Of a DNA stretch of 64,000 nt, positions 13,101 to 57,589 are shown piece by piece; positions within the stretch are counted from its first letter, which is position 1; each line of letters starts with the position of its first letter. The stretch covers positions 1 through 64,000 of the forward strand of contig JADFDG010000014.1 of NCBI GenBank assembly GCA_018262975.1, given 5' to 3'. The translations under genes and the position numbers were made by a program. The notes beneath the pieces were generated by a model. That model was not told the DNA's origin. It made no database searches and worked only from the letters and a program-made list of their open reading frames with translations. Source of the DNA: Gammaproteobacteria bacterium (GTDB taxonomy: Bacteria > Pseudomonadota > Gammaproteobacteria > Pseudomonadales > JADFDG01).

Positions 13101-16100
13101 TTCCTCGATGGCGGATTTGGCGACGACCGGATGGAAGGCGGCTTTGGTGACGACACCTACGTGGTGGACAGCAGCGCCGATATCGTCCGTGACTTCGGCG
13201 GCTCGTTCCGCCGGGAGGCCCTGTCCGACGGTGGCGATGACACCGTGCTCACCACGGTCGACTTCGCAGCTGACTACAGCATCGAGCGGGTTGTTTTCAC
13301 CGGCACGGGTGATGCGGAACTGTCGGGCCAGTTCAACGCCAACGTCCTTGCAGGGGCGGGCGGCAACGACCTTCTCGTTGCCAACCTGCTGAACGGTGTC
13401 GTCGATGGCCCGGGCAACCTGAACTGGGTGTCGCCGCTGGGCGCGACCGAGGAGCGGTTGCTGGAAGAATTCGGTGCTGCGCTCTATCACGGACAGCTGG
13501 ACGGATGGCGCTTGTCTTTCGGTGCGCGGGAGGGCGATACGCTGAGCGGCGGCGACGGTGACGACGTCCTCCTCGGCGACCTGCATCACGACACGTTGCA
13601 GGGTGGCAGTGGCGCCGATCTGCTCGTCGGTTTCGGTGGGGCCGATACCATGGCAGGGGAGGCGGGCGACGATACCTACGTCGTTCACGGCGGCATGGCA
13701 CTCGACATGTTCTTCACCGGCGGGCATGTGCGTTACACGGATGCTGGTGGTGATGTGATCGTAGAGCTGGCCGGTGACGGCTACGACACGGTGATGTCCA
13801 TGGCCAGCTTCGCACTGCCTGACCACGTTGAGGCGCTCGTCCTGCTGGATGGGGACTGGCAGGATCATCCCCTGGCATGGATGTATGCCGGTGCGGTAAT
13901 GCCGGAAGACCTCGCTGTCACCGGCATCGGCAACGCGCTGGACAACCACGTGGTTGGTAACAGCCGTGACAACTGGCTCGATGGCGGGCTGGGCAACGAT
14001 GTGCTGCGTGGCGGCTTTGGTGACGATACCTACGTGGTCGACAGCGCCGCCGACAGCGTCCTTGAGCAGGTCGGTCAGGGGCAGGACACCGTTCGCAGCT
14101 CTGTGTCCTGGACCCTGGGGGACAACCTGGAAGATCTCGTCCTGACCGGCACCGCGGCGGCGAACGGAACCGGCAATGCGCTGGACAACCTGGTGGCGGG
14201 CAATGACGCCGACAACAGGCTGCGGGGGTTGGGGGGGAATGACCAGCTCCACGGTGCGGGCGGCAATGACATCCTCGAGGGTGGCGCAGGCTACGATGTG
14301 CTCGATGGCGGCACGGGTGCAGATGTCATGCGTGGCGGTGCAGGTGCCGACATCTACTACGTGGATGATGCGGGCGATGTCGTCGAGGAGACTTCTGCAT
14401 CCGGTCACGATTCCGTGTACGCGGGCGTCGATTTCACCCTCGGCTCCTGGGTCGAGGAGCTGTACCTGACGGGGACAGACGCCATCAGCGGCAACGGCAA
14501 CAGCCTCGCCAACATCGTCGAGGGCAATGCGGCGGACAACCTGCTCGACGGCCGCGAGGGTAACGACCTCATCAACGGTGGTGCCGGCAACGATACGCTG
14601 CTGGGTGGCGGGGGCAATGATGATCTCTTCGGTGAGTCGGGCAATGACTTGCTGGCAGGCGGCGACGGCAACGATGAGCTCGACGGTGGCGCCGGCATCG
14701 ATCAACTGATCGGGGGGACAGGCGATGACGTTTACCGCGTTGACAACGCACTTGACGAGGTGGTGGAGCTCGCCGGCGAGGGTGATGACACCATCTACGC
14801 CAGCGTCTCCGTGCTGTTGTCGGAGCATTTGGAGAGCGTCGTGCTCCGCGACCTCTTTGACGGGGTCGATGGCCAGGGATTCAGGGTCACGCTGACTGAC
14901 ATCGATGCGATGGGCAATGGCCTGGATAACGTCCTTTATGGAAGTTCAGGTGCCAACAGCCTCAGTGGCGAAGACGGCGACGACTACGTGGACGGCGGTG
15001 CCGGTAATGACCGCCTCCTCGGCGGTGCCGGCGATGACCAGCTTTTCGGTGGCAGCGACGGCCTGATCTACGAGAGCGACATCCTGCTCGACATGGTGGC
15101 GATGCTGCCGCCGAGGTGGGAGTGGATCGAGCTGACGCCGGGCCACTACTGGCGCGAGCGCTATCTGGACAACGATGACTATCTGGATGGCGGCGAGGGC
15201 AATGACCACCTGGACGGTGGCTCGGGGAACGACATCCTGCTGGGCGGTGACGGCAACGACTACCTTTACGGTGGCAACGACGCAAGCGGCAATGCTGTGG
15301 GCAGTTGGGACTGGGTGGGCACCTGGGGCAACGGGGAGAGCGTGCCGCCGCGTGATGCCCTGGAGGAGCAGGTTCCGCTGGTCGAGCTGGAGATACTGCC
15401 GGTCCCGAACGATGACCGGCTGGAGGGTGGTGCTGGCGATGACGTGGTTGATGGCGGTTCCGGGAACGACGTCCTGCTCGGTGGCGACGGGCTGGACAGG
15501 TTGCTCGGCGACGGTGAGGGCGACGCTTGGTGGGGCTATGCGCGGGCAGGCAACGACGTGCTGGATGGTGGCGCCGGCCTGGATCACCTTGAAGGTGGCA
15601 TGGGCGATGACACCTATTACGTTGACGGCTATGGCGACTTCACGCTCACCTGGTCGGATGTCGATCTCAGTTGCTGCAACCTGTCGACCTACGATGCGCT
15701 GGGCGGCTACACCTTGTCAGGTACCTGGGTGACCGACACGGTCATCGAGTACGAGGATCATGGTTGGGACACGGTCTACGCAGCAGTCTCCATGCAGCTT
15801 CCGTATGGCGTCGAGACGCTTGTGCTGCAGGAAGGTGCCGTGGCGGCTTTCAGCGATGACCGGGATGATTTCCTCGTCGGGAACGACGCCCGCAACCTGC
15901 TGGATGGCGGCGCGGGCGTCGACTGGATGGCAGGCGGCTTGGGCGACGATACCTACATCGTTGATCACGAGGCGGATTTCACGTCCGAAGACGTCGCTGC
16001 CGGTCAGGATACGGTCATCGCCAGTGTCGACCATGTACTGGCGGAAAACATCGAGCAACTCATCCTGCGCGGCGATGCCGTGGTGGGCAGCGGCAATGGA

Positions 16101-25832: not shown

Positions 25833-26021
25833 TCAGTAACGCGGCGGCAGGCTGCCGTGGTTGATGGTGGCGTCGGGATCCGCCGACGCCGGTGGTGGCG
25901 GCACCGGCAGTTGCGGCGGCGACAGGCAGGCGCGCAGGAACACGATCATCACCGCGAGCATGCCTATGCCCGCCAGCAGGCGTACGACGGCGGACAGTTG
26001 CGCTCGTGACAGCCGGCTCAT
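25833..26021 (-). CDS. Small membrane protein at the end of the polyamine operon
   Basis: The 62-residue protein has one transmembrane helix (VVRLLAGIGMLAVMIVFLRA) and a Pro-rich tail (PPQLPVPPPPASADP). Its start overlaps the stop of the substrate-binding protein gene by four bases, indicating translational coupling. I know no function; a short membrane partner of the importer or an unrelated passenger are both possible. Confidence 0.6.
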   Translation of the reverse strand: MSRLSRAQLSAVVRLLAGIGMLAVMIVFLRACLSPPQLPVPPPPASADPDATINHGSLPPRY

Positions 26022-27109
26022 TCGCCACCCTTCAGTTGCTGCCAGTACTGTTCGTAGACGGTGATGGCGTCGCCGATGTCCACCTGCAGTTCTGCTTTCG
26101 CCAGCACGTCGGCGCCGGGATAAGCCACCGGGTTGGAAGCGACGGCCGGGTCCAGCAGTTTTTGCGCGGCGAGGTTGGGCGTGCCATAGCCGACGGCTTC
26201 ACTGTTGCGCTTGCCGATGGCCGGCTCCAGCAGGAAGTTGACCAGCGCGTGTGCCGCGTCGATGCGCCTGGCGTTTTTCGGGATGGCCAGGCTGTCGATC
26301 CACATCACCGTGCCTTCCTTCGGGTAGACCAGCACCAGCTTCGGGTTTTCCTGCTGCGCCAGGTAGGCTTCGCCGTTCCACAGCATGCCGATGGCGGCGT
26401 CGCCCTGCAGGTAGGCGTCCTTGGGTGACTCGGAGTCGAACTTGCGCACGCTCGGCAGCAGCGCGGCGAGGCGCTGGTAGGCCTGCTCGATCTGTTTCGG
26501 GTCGGTGGTATTGCCGGAGTGGCCCAGCGAGCGCAGCGCCATGGCGAAGGTTTCGCGCACGTCGTCCAGCAGCAACACCTGGCCCTTGAACTCGGGCTTC
26601 CACAGGTCGGCCCAGGCCGTGACCTTCTTCGGATCGATCTTCGTGCTGTCCACGGCGATCGCGGACAGGCCCCACATGTACGGCACGCTCACCGCGTTGC
26701 CCTTGTCGTAGTCCTGGTCCATCAACGCCGGGTCGAGGTGGGCGACGTTGGGCAACTTCGTCTTGTCCAGCGGCGCCAGCAGGCCTTCCTTCGCCATCTT
26801 GCTGACGAAGTAGGTGGACGGCACCACTACGTCGCAGCCGCCCTCGGTGAGTTTCATCTTGGCGTACAGCGCCTCGTTGCTGTCGTAGGTGCTGTAGACG
26901 ACCTTGATACCGGTCTGCTTCGTGAAGTCGTCGAGCACGGTCGGATCGATGTATTCCGACCAGTTGCAGAAGTAGACCTCGCCGGCGGCTTTCGGCGCGG
27001 CAGCGGCTGCCGGTGCCGGGGCGTCCTCTTTCTTGCCGCAGCCGGCGAGCGCGAGGGCGGCGGCGAGGATGGCAATGGCCAGGCGGGCGGGGCGGGTGGG
27101 TGACGACAT
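26018..27109 (-). CDS. potD: Polyamine ABC transporter substrate-binding protein (PotD/PotF family)
   Basis: The 363-residue protein starts with a lipoprotein signal (ALALAGC, Cys24). It then shows the family opening VYFCNWSEYIDPTVLDDFTK, VVYSTYDSNEALYAKM and DVVVPSTYFVSKMAKEGLL. Aromatic and acidic residues such as those in YMWGLSAIAVD and WADLWKPEFKG line the polyamine pocket in PotD/PotF. It should capture spermidine or putrescine outside the inner membrane. It is the fourth gene of a minus-strand potABCD order, 24 bases after potC. Which polyamine is bound cannot be told from sequence alone. Confidence 0.92.
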   Translation of the reverse strand: MSSPTRPARLAIAILAAALALAGCGKKEDAPAPAAAAAPKAAGEVYFCNWSEYIDPTVLDDFTKQTGIKVVYSTYDSNEALYAKMKLTEGGCDVVVPSTYFVSKMAKEGLLAPLDKTKLPNVAHLDPALMDQDYDKGNAVSVPYMWGLSAIAVDSTKIDPKKVTAWADLWKPEFKGQVLLLDDVRETFAMALRSLGHSGNTTDPKQIEQAYQRLAALLPSVRKFDSESPKDAYLQGDAAIGMLWNGEAYLAQQENPKLVLVYPKEGTVMWIDSLAIPKNARRIDAAHALVNFLLEPAIGKRNSEAVGYGTPNLAAQKLLDPAVASNPVAYPGADVLAKAELQVDIGDAITVYEQYWQQLKGGE

Positions 27110-32608: not shown

Positions 32609-32661
32609 GGTTCGTTCCTCTCTGCGTTCTCTGTAGGGAGGGCGCCATGCGCCCGATGTCG

Positions 32662-45045: not shown

Positions 45046-47418
45046 ATGAACGACGAACAGGTCCAGGTGCACTATCGCGCCTGCAATATCTGCGAGGCAT
45101 GCTGCGGGGTGGAGGTACAGCACCGCGGCGAGGAGATCCTGGCCATCCGCGGTGATCGCCTCGATCCGCTGGGCCGTGGTCATGTCTGCCCGAAGGCGGT
45201 GGCGCTCAAGGACCTGCAGGAGGACCCGGACCGCCTGCGCCACCCGGTGCGCCGCACCGCCGACGGCTGGGAGCGCATCAGCTGGGAGGAAGCCTTCCAC
45301 GAGGTGGTGGCCAACCTCGAGCGCATCCGCGAACAGCATGGCCGCAACGCCATCGGCTTCTACGCCGGCAATCCCACGGCCCACAACCATGGCGCGCTGC
45401 TGTTGCTCCCGTTCTTCGTCAAGGTGCTGCACACGAAGGGCCGTTTCAGCGCGACCAGCGTCGACCAGTTGCCGCACATGCTGGCGGCCATGGAGATGTT
45501 CGGCAACCAGGCGATGTTCCCCATTCCGGACATCGACCGCACCGATTTCTTCCTGTGCATCGGTGCCAACCCGGTCGCCTCCAATGGTTCGATCATGACG
45601 GCGCCGGACATCGTCAACCGCTTCAAGGCCCTGCAGAAACGCAAGGGGCGGCTGGTAGTGATCGATCCGCGTCGCACCGAGACCGCGGAGATGGCCGATG
45701 CGCACCACTTCGTGCGCCCGGGCACCGACGCCATGCTGGTGGCCGCGCTGATCAACGTGCTGTTCGCCGAGCGCAAGGTGAAGCCCGGCCGCGTGGCGGA
45801 GTTCACCAACGGCATCGAGACGCTGCAGAAGCAGGTGCGCCCGTTCACCCCGGAGGCTGTGGCGCCGCACGTGGGCATGGCGGCCGACGCGATCCGCGCG
45901 CTGGCACTGGATTTCGCGGCGGCGAAGAGCGCCGTGGCCTATTGCCGCGTCGGCACCTGCACCAGCGCGTGGAGCGCGCTCAGCGCATGGCTGGTGTACG
46001 CGCTCAACGTGGTCAGCGGCAACATGGATCGTCCTGGCGGCGTGATGTTCCCCAAACCGGCGATCGACGTGGTGGCGCTGGCGGCGCTGGCCGGTGAAAC
46101 GGGCCACTTCAACGCCTGGCAGTCACGCGTCAGCGGGCTGCCGGAATTCGGCGGCGAATTCCCGGCGGTGTGCATGGCCGAGGAAATCCTCACGCCGGGC
46201 GATGGCCAGATCCGCGCCATGATCACCCATGCCGGCAACCCGGTGTTGTCGACGCCCAATGGCCGCCAGCTCGACGAGGCGCTGGCGTCGCTGGATTTCA
46301 TGGTGGCCATCGACATCTACATCAACGAGACCACGCGCCACGCGCACATCATCCTGCCGCCCACCGGCGTGTTCGAGCACACACAGTTCGACCCGGTGTT
46401 CCATGCGGTGGCGGTGCGCAACACCGTGCGCTTCGCGCCGGCGATGCTGCCGAAGCCGGAGGGGGCGCTGCACGACTGGGAGATCCTGCTCGAGCTCACC
46501 ACCCGCCTGGCCAGCCGCGACCTGCCTTCCACGCTGGCGGCGAAGGCCATGCGTAGCGTGGTGCGCGCGCTCGGCGACGAGGGGTTGGTGGACCTGGCCA
46601 TCCGCCTCGGCCCCTACGGCAACCGCGCCGGCATCGTCGATCGCCTCGACGACCTGTTGCTGAACAACGGTTTCTCCGGCCCTCTGTACACGAGGTTGCG
46701 GCGGCAGCTCATCGAGCGCCTGCTGGCGATGCCGAAGGTGCGCGAGTTGCTGGCCACTTCGCCGTATGGCACCGAGAAGAAGCCCGAAGGCGGCCTGACG
46801 CTGGCGAAGATCAAGGCACACCCGCACGGCGTCGACATCGGTCCGCTGGAGCCGTCGCTGCCGGAGCGCCTGAGCACCCCGGACAAGACCATCGAGCTCG
46901 CGCCGGACCTTTACGCGGCGGACATGGCGAAGCTCGCCGCCACGCTGGCGCAGCCGCCCGCCGATGGCCTGCTGATGATCGGCCGTCGCCACGTGCGTTC
47001 GAACAACAGCTGGTTGCACAACAGCTATCGGCTGGTGAAGGGCAAGAACCGTTGCACCGCGATGATCAATCCGCACGACGCCAAGGCACTGGGCATCGAT
47101 GACGGCGCCGAGGTGGAAGTGTCCACACGCGTCGGCGCCATCCGCCTGCCGGCGGAAGTGACGGACGCCATCATGCCCGGCGTGGTGTCGGTGCCGCACG
47201 GCTTCGGCCACGATCGCGACGGCGTCGAGCTGAGCGTGGCCCGCGAGGTGGCGCCCGGCGCCAGCATGAACGACATCACCGACGAGCGCCTGCACGACCC
47301 CCTCACCGGCATGGCCATCATCAATGGCGTGCCGGTGCAGGTGCGGGCGCTCGCGCCGCGGGCGGAGCGTGCGGCGACGAAGAAGGGTCGCCCGCGCCGA
47401 GTCGCCGCGCCCCGCTGA
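45046..47418 (+). CDS. Molybdopterin-dependent oxidoreductase
   Basis: The 790-residue enzyme belongs to the DMSO reductase superfamily. The N-terminal 4Fe-4S site uses Cys13, Cys16, Cys20 and the Cys in GRGHVCPKA. Cofactor-binding regions include IGFYAGNPTAHNHGALLLLP, LVVIDPRRTETAEMADAHHF and the C-terminal MopB domain (LHNSYRLVKG, GIDDGAEVEVSTRVG). No Tat signal is present, so it should be cytoplasmic. Electron-transfer subunits are not adjacent; the group resembles single-subunit acetylene-hydratase/formate-dehydrogenase-like proteins of unknown substrate. CAGGGAG precedes the ATG. Confidence 0.92.
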   Translation: MNDEQVQVHYRACNICEACCGVEVQHRGEEILAIRGDRLDPLGRGHVCPKAVALKDLQEDPDRLRHPVRRTADGWERISWEEAFHEVVANLERIREQHGRNAIGFYAGNPTAHNHGALLLLPFFVKVLHTKGRFSATSVDQLPHMLAAMEMFGNQAMFPIPDIDRTDFFLCIGANPVASNGSIMTAPDIVNRFKALQKRKGRLVVIDPRRTETAEMADAHHFVRPGTDAMLVAALINVLFAERKVKPGRVAEFTNGIETLQKQVRPFTPEAVAPHVGMAADAIRALALDFAAAKSAVAYCRVGTCTSAWSALSAWLVYALNVVSGNMDRPGGVMFPKPAIDVVALAALAGETGHFNAWQSRVSGLPEFGGEFPAVCMAEEILTPGDGQIRAMITHAGNPVLSTPNGRQLDEALASLDFMVAIDIYINETTRHAHIILPPTGVFEHTQFDPVFHAVAVRNTVRFAPAMLPKPEGALHDWEILLELTTRLASRDLPSTLAAKAMRSVVRALGDEGLVDLAIRLGPYGNRAGIVDRLDDLLLNNGFSGPLYTRLRRQLIERLLAMPKVRELLATSPYGTEKKPEGGLTLAKIKAHPHGVDIGPLEPSLPERLSTPDKTIELAPDLYAADMAKLAATLAQPPADGLLMIGRRHVRSNNSWLHNSYRLVKGKNRCTAMINPHDAKALGIDDGAEVEVSTRVGAIRLPAEVTDAIMPGVVSVPHGFGHDRDGVELSVAREVAPGASMNDITDERLHDPLTGMAIINGVPVQVRALAPRAERAATKKGRPRRVAAPR

Positions 47419-54096: not shown

Positions 54097-55071
54097 TCAG
54101 GGAATCAGCACGGTCGCACCGGTGGTGCGGCGCGCTTCCAGCGCGCGGTGCGCTTCGGCGCAGTCGGCCAGCGTATAACGCTGGCCGACCGCCACCTGCA
54201 GCGTGCCGTCTGCGATCGCCGCGAACAGGCGCCTGGCCATGTCGTCGCGTCGCGTGGTGTCGGCAATGTAGTGGAACAGGCTCGGGCGGGTCACCGTCAG
54301 TGACTTCGTGCCCAGCAGCGCTGTGGTGAACGGCGCCACCGGTCCGCTCGACTGCCCGAAACTCACCAGGTGGCCGAATACCGCCAGCGAGCGGATGGAG
54401 GTGTCGAAGGTGTCGCGGCCGACGCCGTCGTAGACCACTGCCACGCCCGCGCCGCCGGTCAGCCGCAGGACTTCGGCGGCCACGTCCTGTTCCCGGTAGT
54501 CGATTACGTGGTGGGCGCCGTGCCGGCGGGCGAGTGCGCACTTGTCGCTGCCGCCGGCAGTGCCGATGACGGTACAGCCGAGCGCATTTGCCCACTGGCA
54601 CAGCAGCAGGCCGACGCCGCCGGCGGCGGCATGAACCAGCACCGTGTCGCCGGCCTTTACCGGGCGGGCGCGGAACAGCAGGAACTCCGCGGTCAGCCCC
54701 TTCAACATTACTGCCGCCGCCTGTTCGTCGCTCACCGTCTCCGGCAGTCTCACCAGATGGCGCGCGGCGATCACCCGGCGCTCGCAGCAGGCGCCACCGG
54801 GCCCGGCCACGTAGGCGACCCGGTCGCCCACGGCAAGCCCCGTCACCTCCGGGCCCAGGCCCTCCACCACGCCGGCAGCTTCCATGCCCGGCACTGCCGG
54901 CGGCACCAGCAAGGGATACAGGCCGGTGCGCGCATACACGTCGATGTAGTTCAGGCCGATTGCCGTCTGTCGGAGGAGCACTTCGCCGGGGCCGGGCGTG
55001 GCCAGCGGGTACGGGCGGTACGTCAGGCACTCCGGGCCGCCGTGGGCGGTCAGCACGACGGCGTGGTTCAT
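54097..55071 (-). CDS. Quinone oxidoreductase (zeta-crystallin type)
   Basis: The 324-residue medium-chain reductase lacks the zinc ligands of alcohol dehydrogenases. It has LRQTAIGLNYIDVYARTGLY, VPGMEAAGVV and the NADPH motif VLVHAAAGGVGLLLCQWANA, matching Qor. It reduces quinones with one electron. Its start overlaps the UbiB-like gene's stop by four bases. Pairing with a UbiB-type kinase fits a shared quinone role. Confidence 0.93.
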   Translation of the reverse strand: MNHAVVLTAHGGPECLTYRPYPLATPGPGEVLLRQTAIGLNYIDVYARTGLYPLLVPPAVPGMEAAGVVEGLGPEVTGLAVGDRVAYVAGPGGACCERRVIAARHLVRLPETVSDEQAAAVMLKGLTAEFLLFRARPVKAGDTVLVHAAAGGVGLLLCQWANALGCTVIGTAGGSDKCALARRHGAHHVIDYREQDVAAEVLRLTGGAGVAVVYDGVGRDTFDTSIRSLAVFGHLVSFGQSSGPVAPFTTALLGTKSLTVTRPSLFHYIADTTRRDDMARRLFAAIADGTLQVAVGQRYTLADCAEAHRALEARRTTGATVLIP

Positions 55072-56417
55072 GCCGTCGGTCCCGTGTACTTCTCGACGAG
55101 GTCGCGCGTCGATGCAACGGTGCCGAGTTTCATCAGTGTCCAGTAGTGGCCGGTGATCACCCGGTTGACCAGCATGGTGCGCGCCGCCGGCTGGAACGAA
55201 TCGAGGTAGCGCAGCGGCGTGGCGCGCGCCTGCTTGAAAACCTCGATGTGCAACCGCGAGTTGCCGAAATCGAAAGGCTGGTCGGAGAAAGCGGGCAGGA
55301 ACAGTTCCATCCAGCGCCGGTAGAAGCTGTCCTCCGGGCGCGGACCGTCCGGCCGGCGCACGCCGAGGTCGATCAGCGCGGCCTCGATGCCGTCGAAGTC
55401 GGTGTTGTAGGCGGCCTGCATGATGCGGCGATAGATCGCGATGTCGCCCGGCGTCAGCCGCTTCACGGCGCCGAAATCGTAGATGATGATGCTGCCGTCC
55501 GGCCGGAACGCGAAGTTGCCGGGATGCGGGTCGCAATGCACGGCGTGGTGCACGAAGATCTGCTTGCCGAAGATGTCGAACACGCGGCGGCCGAGTTCGT
55601 TGCGCAGCGCCTGGTCGTACTGCGGCGAGCTGGCGACGGTGTCCAGCGTGTCGCCGCTCTCGCGGGTCAGCGTGAGTACGCGGCGGCTGGTGAACTCCTC
55701 CACCACCTCGGGGATGACGATGCCGTGGTCTTCGGCGTGGAAGGCGCGGAATGCGCGGAGGTTTTCCGCTTCCTTCTGGTAGTCGAGCTCGTCGCGCAGG
55801 CGGGCCTTGATCTCGTTGAAGACTTCGTCGATCACCTGTTCGTCGAGCTTGAGCAATCCGGCCAGCCGGAAGATGCGGCGCAGGTGGCGCAAGTCGGACT
55901 CGATGGATTCCTCGACGCCCGGGTACTGCACCTTGACCACCACTTCGCGACCGTCCGGCAGCACCGCGCGATGCACCTGGCCGATGGAGGCGGCGGCGAA
56001 CGGCTGCTCGTCCATCTCGCGGAACAGTTCATAAGGGGGGGCGCCGAGCTCGTCGATGATCTGCTTGCGGATCACGCGGAAGGGCATCGGCGGCGATTCC
56101 TTCTGCAGCTTCTCCAGTGCCTTGGCGAACTCTTCCGGCAGCAGGTCCTTCACCTGCGAGGCGATCTGCCCCACCTTCATCACCGCGCCCTTCATCTCGC
56201 CGAGCGTCTCGGCAACCTCCGCGCCGATCTTCGCCAGCATTTTCTGGCGTTCCTTCTCGCGCTGTTCCTCGGAAAGGAACAGTGACTTGGCGGAGGAGGT
56301 CGCCACGCGCGTGGCGATCGACGTGGACATGCCGGCCAGCTTCATGAACCGGCGCGCCGGCGTGGTGGCGGTGAAGCGCTTGTCGTTCTTCTTGTCGTTG
56401 TCGTCTTTGCTGGCCAT
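55068..56417 (-). CDS. ABC1/UbiB-family atypical kinase (AarF-like)
   Basis: The 449-residue protein has the KxGQ motif in GAVMKVGQIASQVKDLLP, the A-rich loop in FAAASIGQVHRAVL (AAAS replacing the P-loop), VVVKVQYPGVEESIESDL, catalytic HCDPHPGNF and the metal-binding YDFGAVK. This family supports ubiquinone synthesis through ATPase activity. No C-terminal transmembrane helices are seen, unlike UbiB, so it is closer to the AarF/Coq8-like cytosolic group. It is coupled to the quinone reductase gene. Confidence 0.93.
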   Translation of the reverse strand: MASKDDNDKKNDKRFTATTPARRFMKLAGMSTSIATRVATSSAKSLFLSEEQREKERQKMLAKIGAEVAETLGEMKGAVMKVGQIASQVKDLLPEEFAKALEKLQKESPPMPFRVIRKQIIDELGAPPYELFREMDEQPFAAASIGQVHRAVLPDGREVVVKVQYPGVEESIESDLRHLRRIFRLAGLLKLDEQVIDEVFNEIKARLRDELDYQKEAENLRAFRAFHAEDHGIVIPEVVEEFTSRRVLTLTRESGDTLDTVASSPQYDQALRNELGRRVFDIFGKQIFVHHAVHCDPHPGNFAFRPDGSIIIYDFGAVKRLTPGDIAIYRRIMQAAYNTDFDGIEAALIDLGVRRPDGPRPEDSFYRRWMELFLPAFSDQPFDFGNSRLHIEVFKQARATPLRYLDSFQPAARTMLVNRVITGHYWTLMKLGTVASTRDLVEKYTGPTA

Positions 56418-56505
56418 GGCTGCGGCATCCCCCTCGACGGCCGGATCATGGCACAGGGGGGTGGGGCGTCAATCGCGGTTTCCGGCAGTTCCGGCCCGCT
56501 GGGGC

Positions 56506-56541
56506 GGGGTGGCAAAAAGCCGGGGGTTTGCCCGCCACCCC
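56506..56541. other. Imperfect hairpin upstream of the UbiB-like gene
   Basis: GGGGTGGCAAA (56506-56516) pairs with TTTGCC plus ACCCC (56527-56541) across a 4-base bulge. It lies between the UbiB-like start and the leader of the lipoprotein gene. It is not followed by a T-tract on either strand. Confidence 0.35.
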
Positions 56542-56567
56542 CCGTTCCGTTTTGAAAAAAACCTGCG

Positions 56568-56750
56568 TATAGTACGCGCGCCTGCCGACCCTGGCGTTGT
56601 CCGACAATCGGTGCACTTCGTCAGGCGTTCGAGGCCTCCCGGAGTCATACGCATAGCCGCCCCAGCGGGCGGGGATGCCTATGATCCCGGGTTACCCGCG
56701 AGGGTGGCTCGGATCAGAACTGCCGGCAACGGCAGACCACGTGGTTAGTC
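56568..56750 (+). ncRNA. Candidate structured RNA or 5' leader of the lipoprotein gene
   Basis: A TATAGT box (56568-56573) precedes about 170 bases dense in perfect stems. GCAT/ATGC encloses CCGCCC-CAGC-GGGCGG (56651-56678). GATCC/GGATC (56683-56715) encloses ACCC-GCGA-GGGT (56694-56705). CTGCCG-GCAA-CGGCAG (56720-56735) and the palindrome ACCACGTGGT (56736-56745) follow. Two of the loops are GNRA tetraloops. No ORF fits. I cannot match it to a riboswitch or 6S/4.5S RNA I know. It may be a leader of the lipoprotein gene or a free small RNA. Confidence 0.45.
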
Positions 56751-56783
56751 AATTGCTGTCCCTGTGACCCTGTACGTTTCCTT

Positions 56784-56795
56784 GAGGTATACCTC
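56784..56795 (+). promoter_or_regulatory. Ribosome binding site inside a perfect palindrome
   Basis: GAGGTATACCTC lies directly before the ATG at 56797. Its GAGG is the Shine-Dalgarno sequence and can pair with CCTC over a TATA loop, so translation could be gated by opening this hairpin. Confidence 0.6.
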
Positions 56796-56796
56796 C

Positions 56797-57030
56797 ATGA
56801 AGAAGTTCGCTGTTCTGGCCGTTGCGGCCCTGCTGGTTGCTGCTTGCGGCAAGAAAGAAGAAGCCCCGGCTCCGGCCGCTGAAGTAGCTGCTCCGGCCGT
56901 TGAAGCCGCTCCGGCCCCGGTTGCCGAAGCTCCGGCTGCTGACGCCGCTGCTGTTGACGCCGCTGCTGCTCCGGCTGACGCCGCTGCTGCTCCGGCTGCT
57001 GACGCTGCTGCCGCTCCGGCCGCCCAGTAA
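56797..57030 (+). CDS. Ala/Pro-rich small lipoprotein
   Basis: The 77-residue protein has signal peptide MKKFAVLAVAALLVAAC with the acylated Cys17, then GKKEEAPAPAAE. About 50 residues of AP, AAPA and ADAAA repeats follow, with a few acidic residues. Such tails are unstructured and often span the periplasm or cell wall. It is monocistronic: structured leader before, strong terminator after. It is probably highly expressed (inference from the terminator and low-complexity coding). Function unknown. Confidence 0.85.
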   Translation: MKKFAVLAVAALLVAACGKKEEAPAPAAEVAAPAVEAAPAPVAEAPAADAAAVDAAAAPADAAAAPAADAAAAPAAQ

Positions 57031-57053: not shown

Positions 57054-57085
57054 AAAAGCCCGCCTTCCGGCGGGCTTTTCTTTTT
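57054..57085 (+). terminator. Strong Rho-independent terminator after the lipoprotein gene
   Basis: AAAAGCCCGCC-TTCC-GGCGGGCTTTT followed by CTTTTT gives a 7-base-pair GC stem extended by A-T pairs. Confidence 0.95.
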
Positions 57086-57169: not shown

Positions 57170-57589
57170 TCAGGCGCCCGGGCCCTGGCGCTTCTCGCCG
57201 GTGGCGACCAGGTCGTCAAAGAGGCGCTGGCTTTCGTCGCGCAGGGTGGCAACGGCGCCAATGACTGCCAGCACGTACTCGTTGCCGGCTTCCTCGGTCT
57301 CGCCCTGCTGCTTCTTGCCGGCTTCCACCAGCTTGTTCACCAGCTCGTCGCTCTCCTCGCGCAGGGTGGCGACCAGGCCGCGGGCGGCCACGACGTAACG
57401 GCTCTTCAGGGCGGCTTCGCTACCGATGGCGCGCTCGCCGGCCGACACGTACTTGTCCAGTTGCTTGCGGCCCTGCTCTTCGGCCTTGCTGACGGCGCCC
57501 AGGCCGGCCAGCCACACCTTGCGGTTCACTTCCTTCGCGCGGTTGACCAGCGACTCCTGCTGGCTACGCAGATCTTTCAGCTCGCCCAT
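57170..57589 (-). CDS. Phasin-family protein
   Basis: The 139-residue protein is almost all amphipathic helix: VWLAGLGAVSKAEEQGRKQL, LDKYVSAGERAIG and YVLAVIGAVATLRDESQRLF. This is the PHA granule-associated (PhaI/PhaF-type) phasin pattern, coating polyhydroxyalkanoate granules. The start at 57589 has GGAG seven bases upstream. No PHA synthase is in the window. Confidence 0.88.
   Translation of the reverse strand: MGELKDLRSQQESLVNRAKEVNRKVWLAGLGAVSKAEEQGRKQLDKYVSAGERAIGSEAALKSRYVVAARGLVATLREESDELVNKLVEAGKKQQGETEEAGNEYVLAVIGAVATLRDESQRLFDDLVATGEKRQGPGA

Follow-up and report, generated by a model that had tools for sequence, protein, structure and literature searches.

New classes of structured RNA are normally claimed on the basis of relatives that share conserved sequence and show covariation. 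Protective stem-loops in the 5' part of mRNAs are well described, for example for ompA, for recA of Acinetobacter and for vacA (PMC7509114). Cis-regulatory motifs with few members have also been reported, among them the orphan motifs ilvB and sucC-II of Leptospira, and motifs of such rarity still comprise several representatives (PMC8632094). Here we analyze a hairpin-rich region upstream of a small lipoprotein gene, located in a window of 64,000 nucleotides (the whole stretch of DNA that was analyzed) from a gammaproteobacterial genome. As a tentative explanation, we propose that this lipoprotein is translated from a monocistronic mRNA whose 5' untranslated leader, at positions 56580-56796 (+), is structured and would function in cis, either passively or under weak regulation.

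A gap of 379 bases separates the gene for an ABC1/UbiB-type kinase (55068-56417, minus strand) from the gene for an Ala/Pro-rich lipoprotein of 77 amino acids with a lipobox ending in AAC (56797-57030, plus strand). Downstream of the latter follow a strong intrinsic terminator (57056-57085, +) and a phasin-like gene (57170-57589, -). No convincing gene was found in the intergenic region 56418-56796, in agreement with the original prediction, which had seen no coding explanation for the structure. A possible upstream open reading frame for 30 amino acids (56675-56767, +; alternative start at 56681) is unconvincing, with a start that falls inside the first of the hairpins described below and a GC3 of 0.63, and the antisense frame across the leader region, with a GC3 of about 0.6, is not coding-like either.

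The sequence TATAGT at 56568-56573 (+), which matches TATAAT in five of six positions and is followed by the GC-rich stretch ACGCGCGCC, makes a fair -10 box. This box had been noted in the original prediction and is indeed present; however, a scan for sigma-70 promoters made no call at this position, because the -35 element is poor or there is none at the right spacing. From the position of the -10 box we infer a transcription start at 56580 and, together with the folding analysis, a probable 5' leader of about 217 nt (56580-56796, +). A scan for intrinsic terminators made no call in the interval from the hairpins to the start of the lipoprotein gene, and the region therefore reads as a 5' leader rather than a small RNA of its own. 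The simplest transcript deduced from these sequence features would be a single mRNA of ~500 nt that includes the leader of ~217 nt. An independent small RNA had been proposed as well; it might act in trans and perhaps be processed out of the leader, and a compact stable fold with its own -10-like box is what such an RNA might look like. Yet with a weak promoter, a missing terminator and the lipoprotein gene, preceded by a Shine-Dalgarno sequence, following in line after about 60 nt, an independent small RNA seems improbable.

Three hairpins are predicted for the 101 nt of segment 56638-56738 (+), with a folding energy of -55.9 kcal/mol. Hairpin H1 (56644-56685, +) consists of 16 pairs in three blocks around a 4-nt loop (CAGC), contains internal mismatches and corresponds to an inverted repeat of 25 nt. 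Hairpin H2 (56687-56712, +) has 11 pairs, three of which are G-U pairs, and a GCGA loop of the GNRA type, while hairpin H3 (56720-56735, +; CTGCCG-GCAA-CGGCAG) has six perfect Watson-Crick pairs closed by another GNRA loop. The two GNRA tetraloops that had been predicted were thus recovered, and of the five perfect stems there remain three hairpins, with mismatches in H1, G-U pairs in H2 and perfect pairing in H3. H1 can be extended by CCCGG at 56638-56642 pairing with CCGGG at 56687-56691, and since the latter bases also form the 5' side of H2, this extension and H2 are mutually exclusive. The perfect palindrome ACCACGTGGT (56736-56745) follows directly after H3, and an imperfect stem-loop is predicted at the 5' end of the leader (56580-56636, +), where 100-nt windows taken alone were not beyond chance. 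When the first 60 bases of the lipoprotein gene were included in the fold, H2 and H3 partly gave way to other pairings, which makes the exact pairing scheme uncertain.

Comparison with shuffled sequences revealed -55.9 kcal/mol for 56638-56738 versus -39.2 ± 3.7 kcal/mol for the shuffles (z = -4.6), and none of 5000 dinucleotide-preserving shuffles was as stable; the original observation thus holds in the main. Of the region 56568-56750 originally delimited, about 100 bases are structured and the strongest part is 56638-56738 and not the entire span; likewise, the whole 222-nt leader is only moderately special (z = -2.6). After regression on dinucleotide content, the 100-nt window starting at 56641 (+) ranked third among 6390 windows from both strands of the 64 kb. 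The two windows ranking higher lie at 57021, on the strand opposite the lipoprotein terminator, and at 47281, in a stretch which, with its three open frames, is probably coding. The fold is strand-biased, being stronger on the plus than on the minus strand. As to the claim that its pairing lies far above that of other intergenic regions, 56638-56738 is the strongest intergenic structure in the window that is not a terminator, but in this GC-rich genome a few stretches of coding sequence come to comparable values (z around -4), and the excess is therefore real without being astronomical.

Such coding stretches, the selection of the finding after the fact and the absence of any sign of conservation would all be in line with fortuitous hairpins in a GC-rich intergenic stretch that have no function as RNA. 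We consider such an origin by chance unlikely in view of the shuffling result and the strand bias, and because, across 240 kb of this genome, intergenic stretches that were equally or more extreme were mostly terminators or REP repeats. The strongest intergenic fold outside of REPs in these 240 kb is a pair of very strong tandem hairpins, the second of which is an intrinsic terminator, about 1.5 kb past the end of rpsD (locus L165, 2576-2675, +; G000:C14 about 14576-14675).

GTAG-type REPs are a known kind of element, and they are abundant in this genome of 3.3 Mb, in which the GTAG-headed half-palindrome GTAGNGAGGGGGCCATGCCCCCGA has 544 matches (278 + 266; none for the control). These half-palindromes often occur in inverted pairs, as in a REP/BIME family (for example at loci L174 and L172), and the 64 kb window is nearly free of them, with one degenerate copy at 32633-32656. 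The only match to Y1_Tnp (PF01797) in the genome (locus L178, 1357-1923; G000:C25 near 134513-134851) has inverted GTAG-REP pairs on both sides, as expected for the locus of a RAYT transposase, and its sequence context suggests a RAYT-like gene. Like these REPs, the leader contains GC-rich palindromes in intergenic DNA, namely ACCACGTGGT, the inverted repeat of H1 and a perfect palindrome close to the lipoprotein start (GAGGTATACCTC), so that an element acting at the level of DNA, such as a palindromic operator or the relic of a repeat, for instance of a REP, might be considered. Unlike the REPs, however, the leader is single-copy in its own genome, which disfavors a REP or any other repeat; it lacks the GTAG head, nothing in it matches the REP core when up to three mismatches are allowed, and H2 depends in part on G-U pairs, which are found only in RNA. 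An element at the DNA level is consequently the explanation to which we assign the least probability, and we regard it as highly improbable.

The palindrome GAGGTATACCTC (also given as GAGGUAUACCUC; 56784-56795, +) includes the Shine-Dalgarno sequence GAGG (56784-56787), paired with CCTC in a hairpin of four pairs only. In every context folded, whether or not the remainder of the leader was included, the Shine-Dalgarno sequence was predicted to be more than 90% paired. A sequestered Shine-Dalgarno sequence, stable GNRA-capped stems and the bases CCGGG, which could pair either in the H1 extension or in the 5' strand of H2, make it conceivable that a signal switches lipoprotein expression through a regulated leader, be it riboswitch-like, a thermometer or protein-binding. 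Mutually exclusive stems are, however, common by chance in GC-rich RNA, no ligand is suggested by the downstream gene, and neither an Rfam family nor a relative in the order and class samples (see below) was encountered, so that we hold a regulated leader to be a rather unlikely alternative. As regards an expression platform, no terminator was called within the leader, and the Shine-Dalgarno sequence is predicted to be paired in all folds alike. In a more specific version, very unlikely in our judgment, alternative folds of extended H1 and H2 would respond to a signal by gating the hidden Shine-Dalgarno sequence of an abundant envelope lipoprotein and would define an RNA class restricted to this lineage. 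The riboswitch-like leader of the original prediction is upheld insofar as a structured leader is the best reading; its riboswitch-like character comes with no Rfam match and no relative, and a novel riboswitch is a possible but unsupported identity. For the suggested role in envelope control no positive evidence was obtained, and the downstream gene has no known function.

The original prediction had named a scan with Rfam as a check, and no family matched: at the gathering threshold, none of 4227 families of Rfam 15 was detected in the window, and within the leader a permissive search produced nothing beyond chance-level matches. Only short matches came up when 390 genomes of the order were searched by BLAST, and thirteen of these, examined in their context, all appear to be chance matches, most if not all lying in coding sequence. 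When 341 order genomes and 350 class genomes were searched with a covariance model, it recovered only the leader itself and its own reverse strand; built from one sequence, it is a weak model, and the searches used strict filters, so that distant relatives can be missed. Among the sampled genomes, the source genome is the only one from its bacterial family; a 16S search retrieved no 16S gene from its assembly. No relative of the leader was found on plasmids or in phages, the latter giving one 21-base chance match, and scans of viral contigs gave nothing. A search for contigs with an ABC1 kinase by peptide patterns led only to distant relatives, mostly from Prochlorococcus, which is attributable to the choice of the pattern. 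In another family of the order, the one in which the flanking genes are retained, a gene for an ABC1 kinase (52-62% identical) and a phasin gene are adjacent in 16 of the examined loci, with a short gap between them that contains neither leader nor lipoprotein gene. Leader and lipoprotein gene therefore appear to have been gained in the source lineage or lost in that other family.

The codon usage of the lipoprotein gene favors GCT, GTT and CCG. GCT is used for 25 of 40 alanines, compared to 6-9% in reference genes, while 6 of 7 valines are encoded by GTT, compared to 9-16%, and the codon score of the gene lies outside the range of all 127 background (reference) genes. Such a bias would be compatible with very high expression; since this genome's own genes for ribosomal proteins show less GCT/GTT bias, it is only suggestive in this respect and may have another cause. 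Searches with the N-terminus of the lipoprotein matched generic lipoprotein signal peptides only, and in the inspected regions upstream of these matches neither inspection by eye, which showed no obvious similar leader, nor the covariance model detected a relative. A gene at 26018-27109 (-) encodes a substrate-binding lipoprotein of the polyamine type, as judged by eye, beside ABC-transporter permease-like genes, and its product is similar to the small lipoprotein at the N-terminus (GCGKKEDAPAPAAAAAP).

The best reading of these data is a lineage-specific leader that would affect mRNA stability and/or translation. If 56580-56796 is a structured leader of this kind, transcription would start near 56580, cover the three stable hairpins as well as the lipoprotein gene and end at the terminator 57056-57085. 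The hairpins would most likely act in cis; they would hold off RNase E and slow down mRNA decay, as does the leader of ompA in Escherichia coli, and the small hairpin over the Shine-Dalgarno sequence would set the level of translation initiation. As no relative was found anywhere, a new class of regulatory RNA cannot be claimed, and the case illustrates that a strong folding energy in a single genome does not identify such a class. We rate the leader as lying outside every Rfam family tested and as a feature of an ordinary kind, which would work in the way of a structured mRNA leader. If real, it would be one more such leader, belonging to a small envelope lipoprotein from a poorly sampled bacterial family, and it would gain weight only through covariation in relatives. 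In its stable stems upstream of one gene and its few representatives, it is similar to the orphan motifs of Leptospira, although ilvB and sucC-II have six or seven relatives before the same gene (PMC8632094) and the lipoprotein leader has none. With the E. coli ompA leader it shares a long structured 5' region before an envelope protein gene and, for a start at 56580, a 5' end that is predicted to be paired, so that slower decay would be expected; in contrast to ompA, the Shine-Dalgarno sequence itself is predicted to be paired in the lipoprotein leader.
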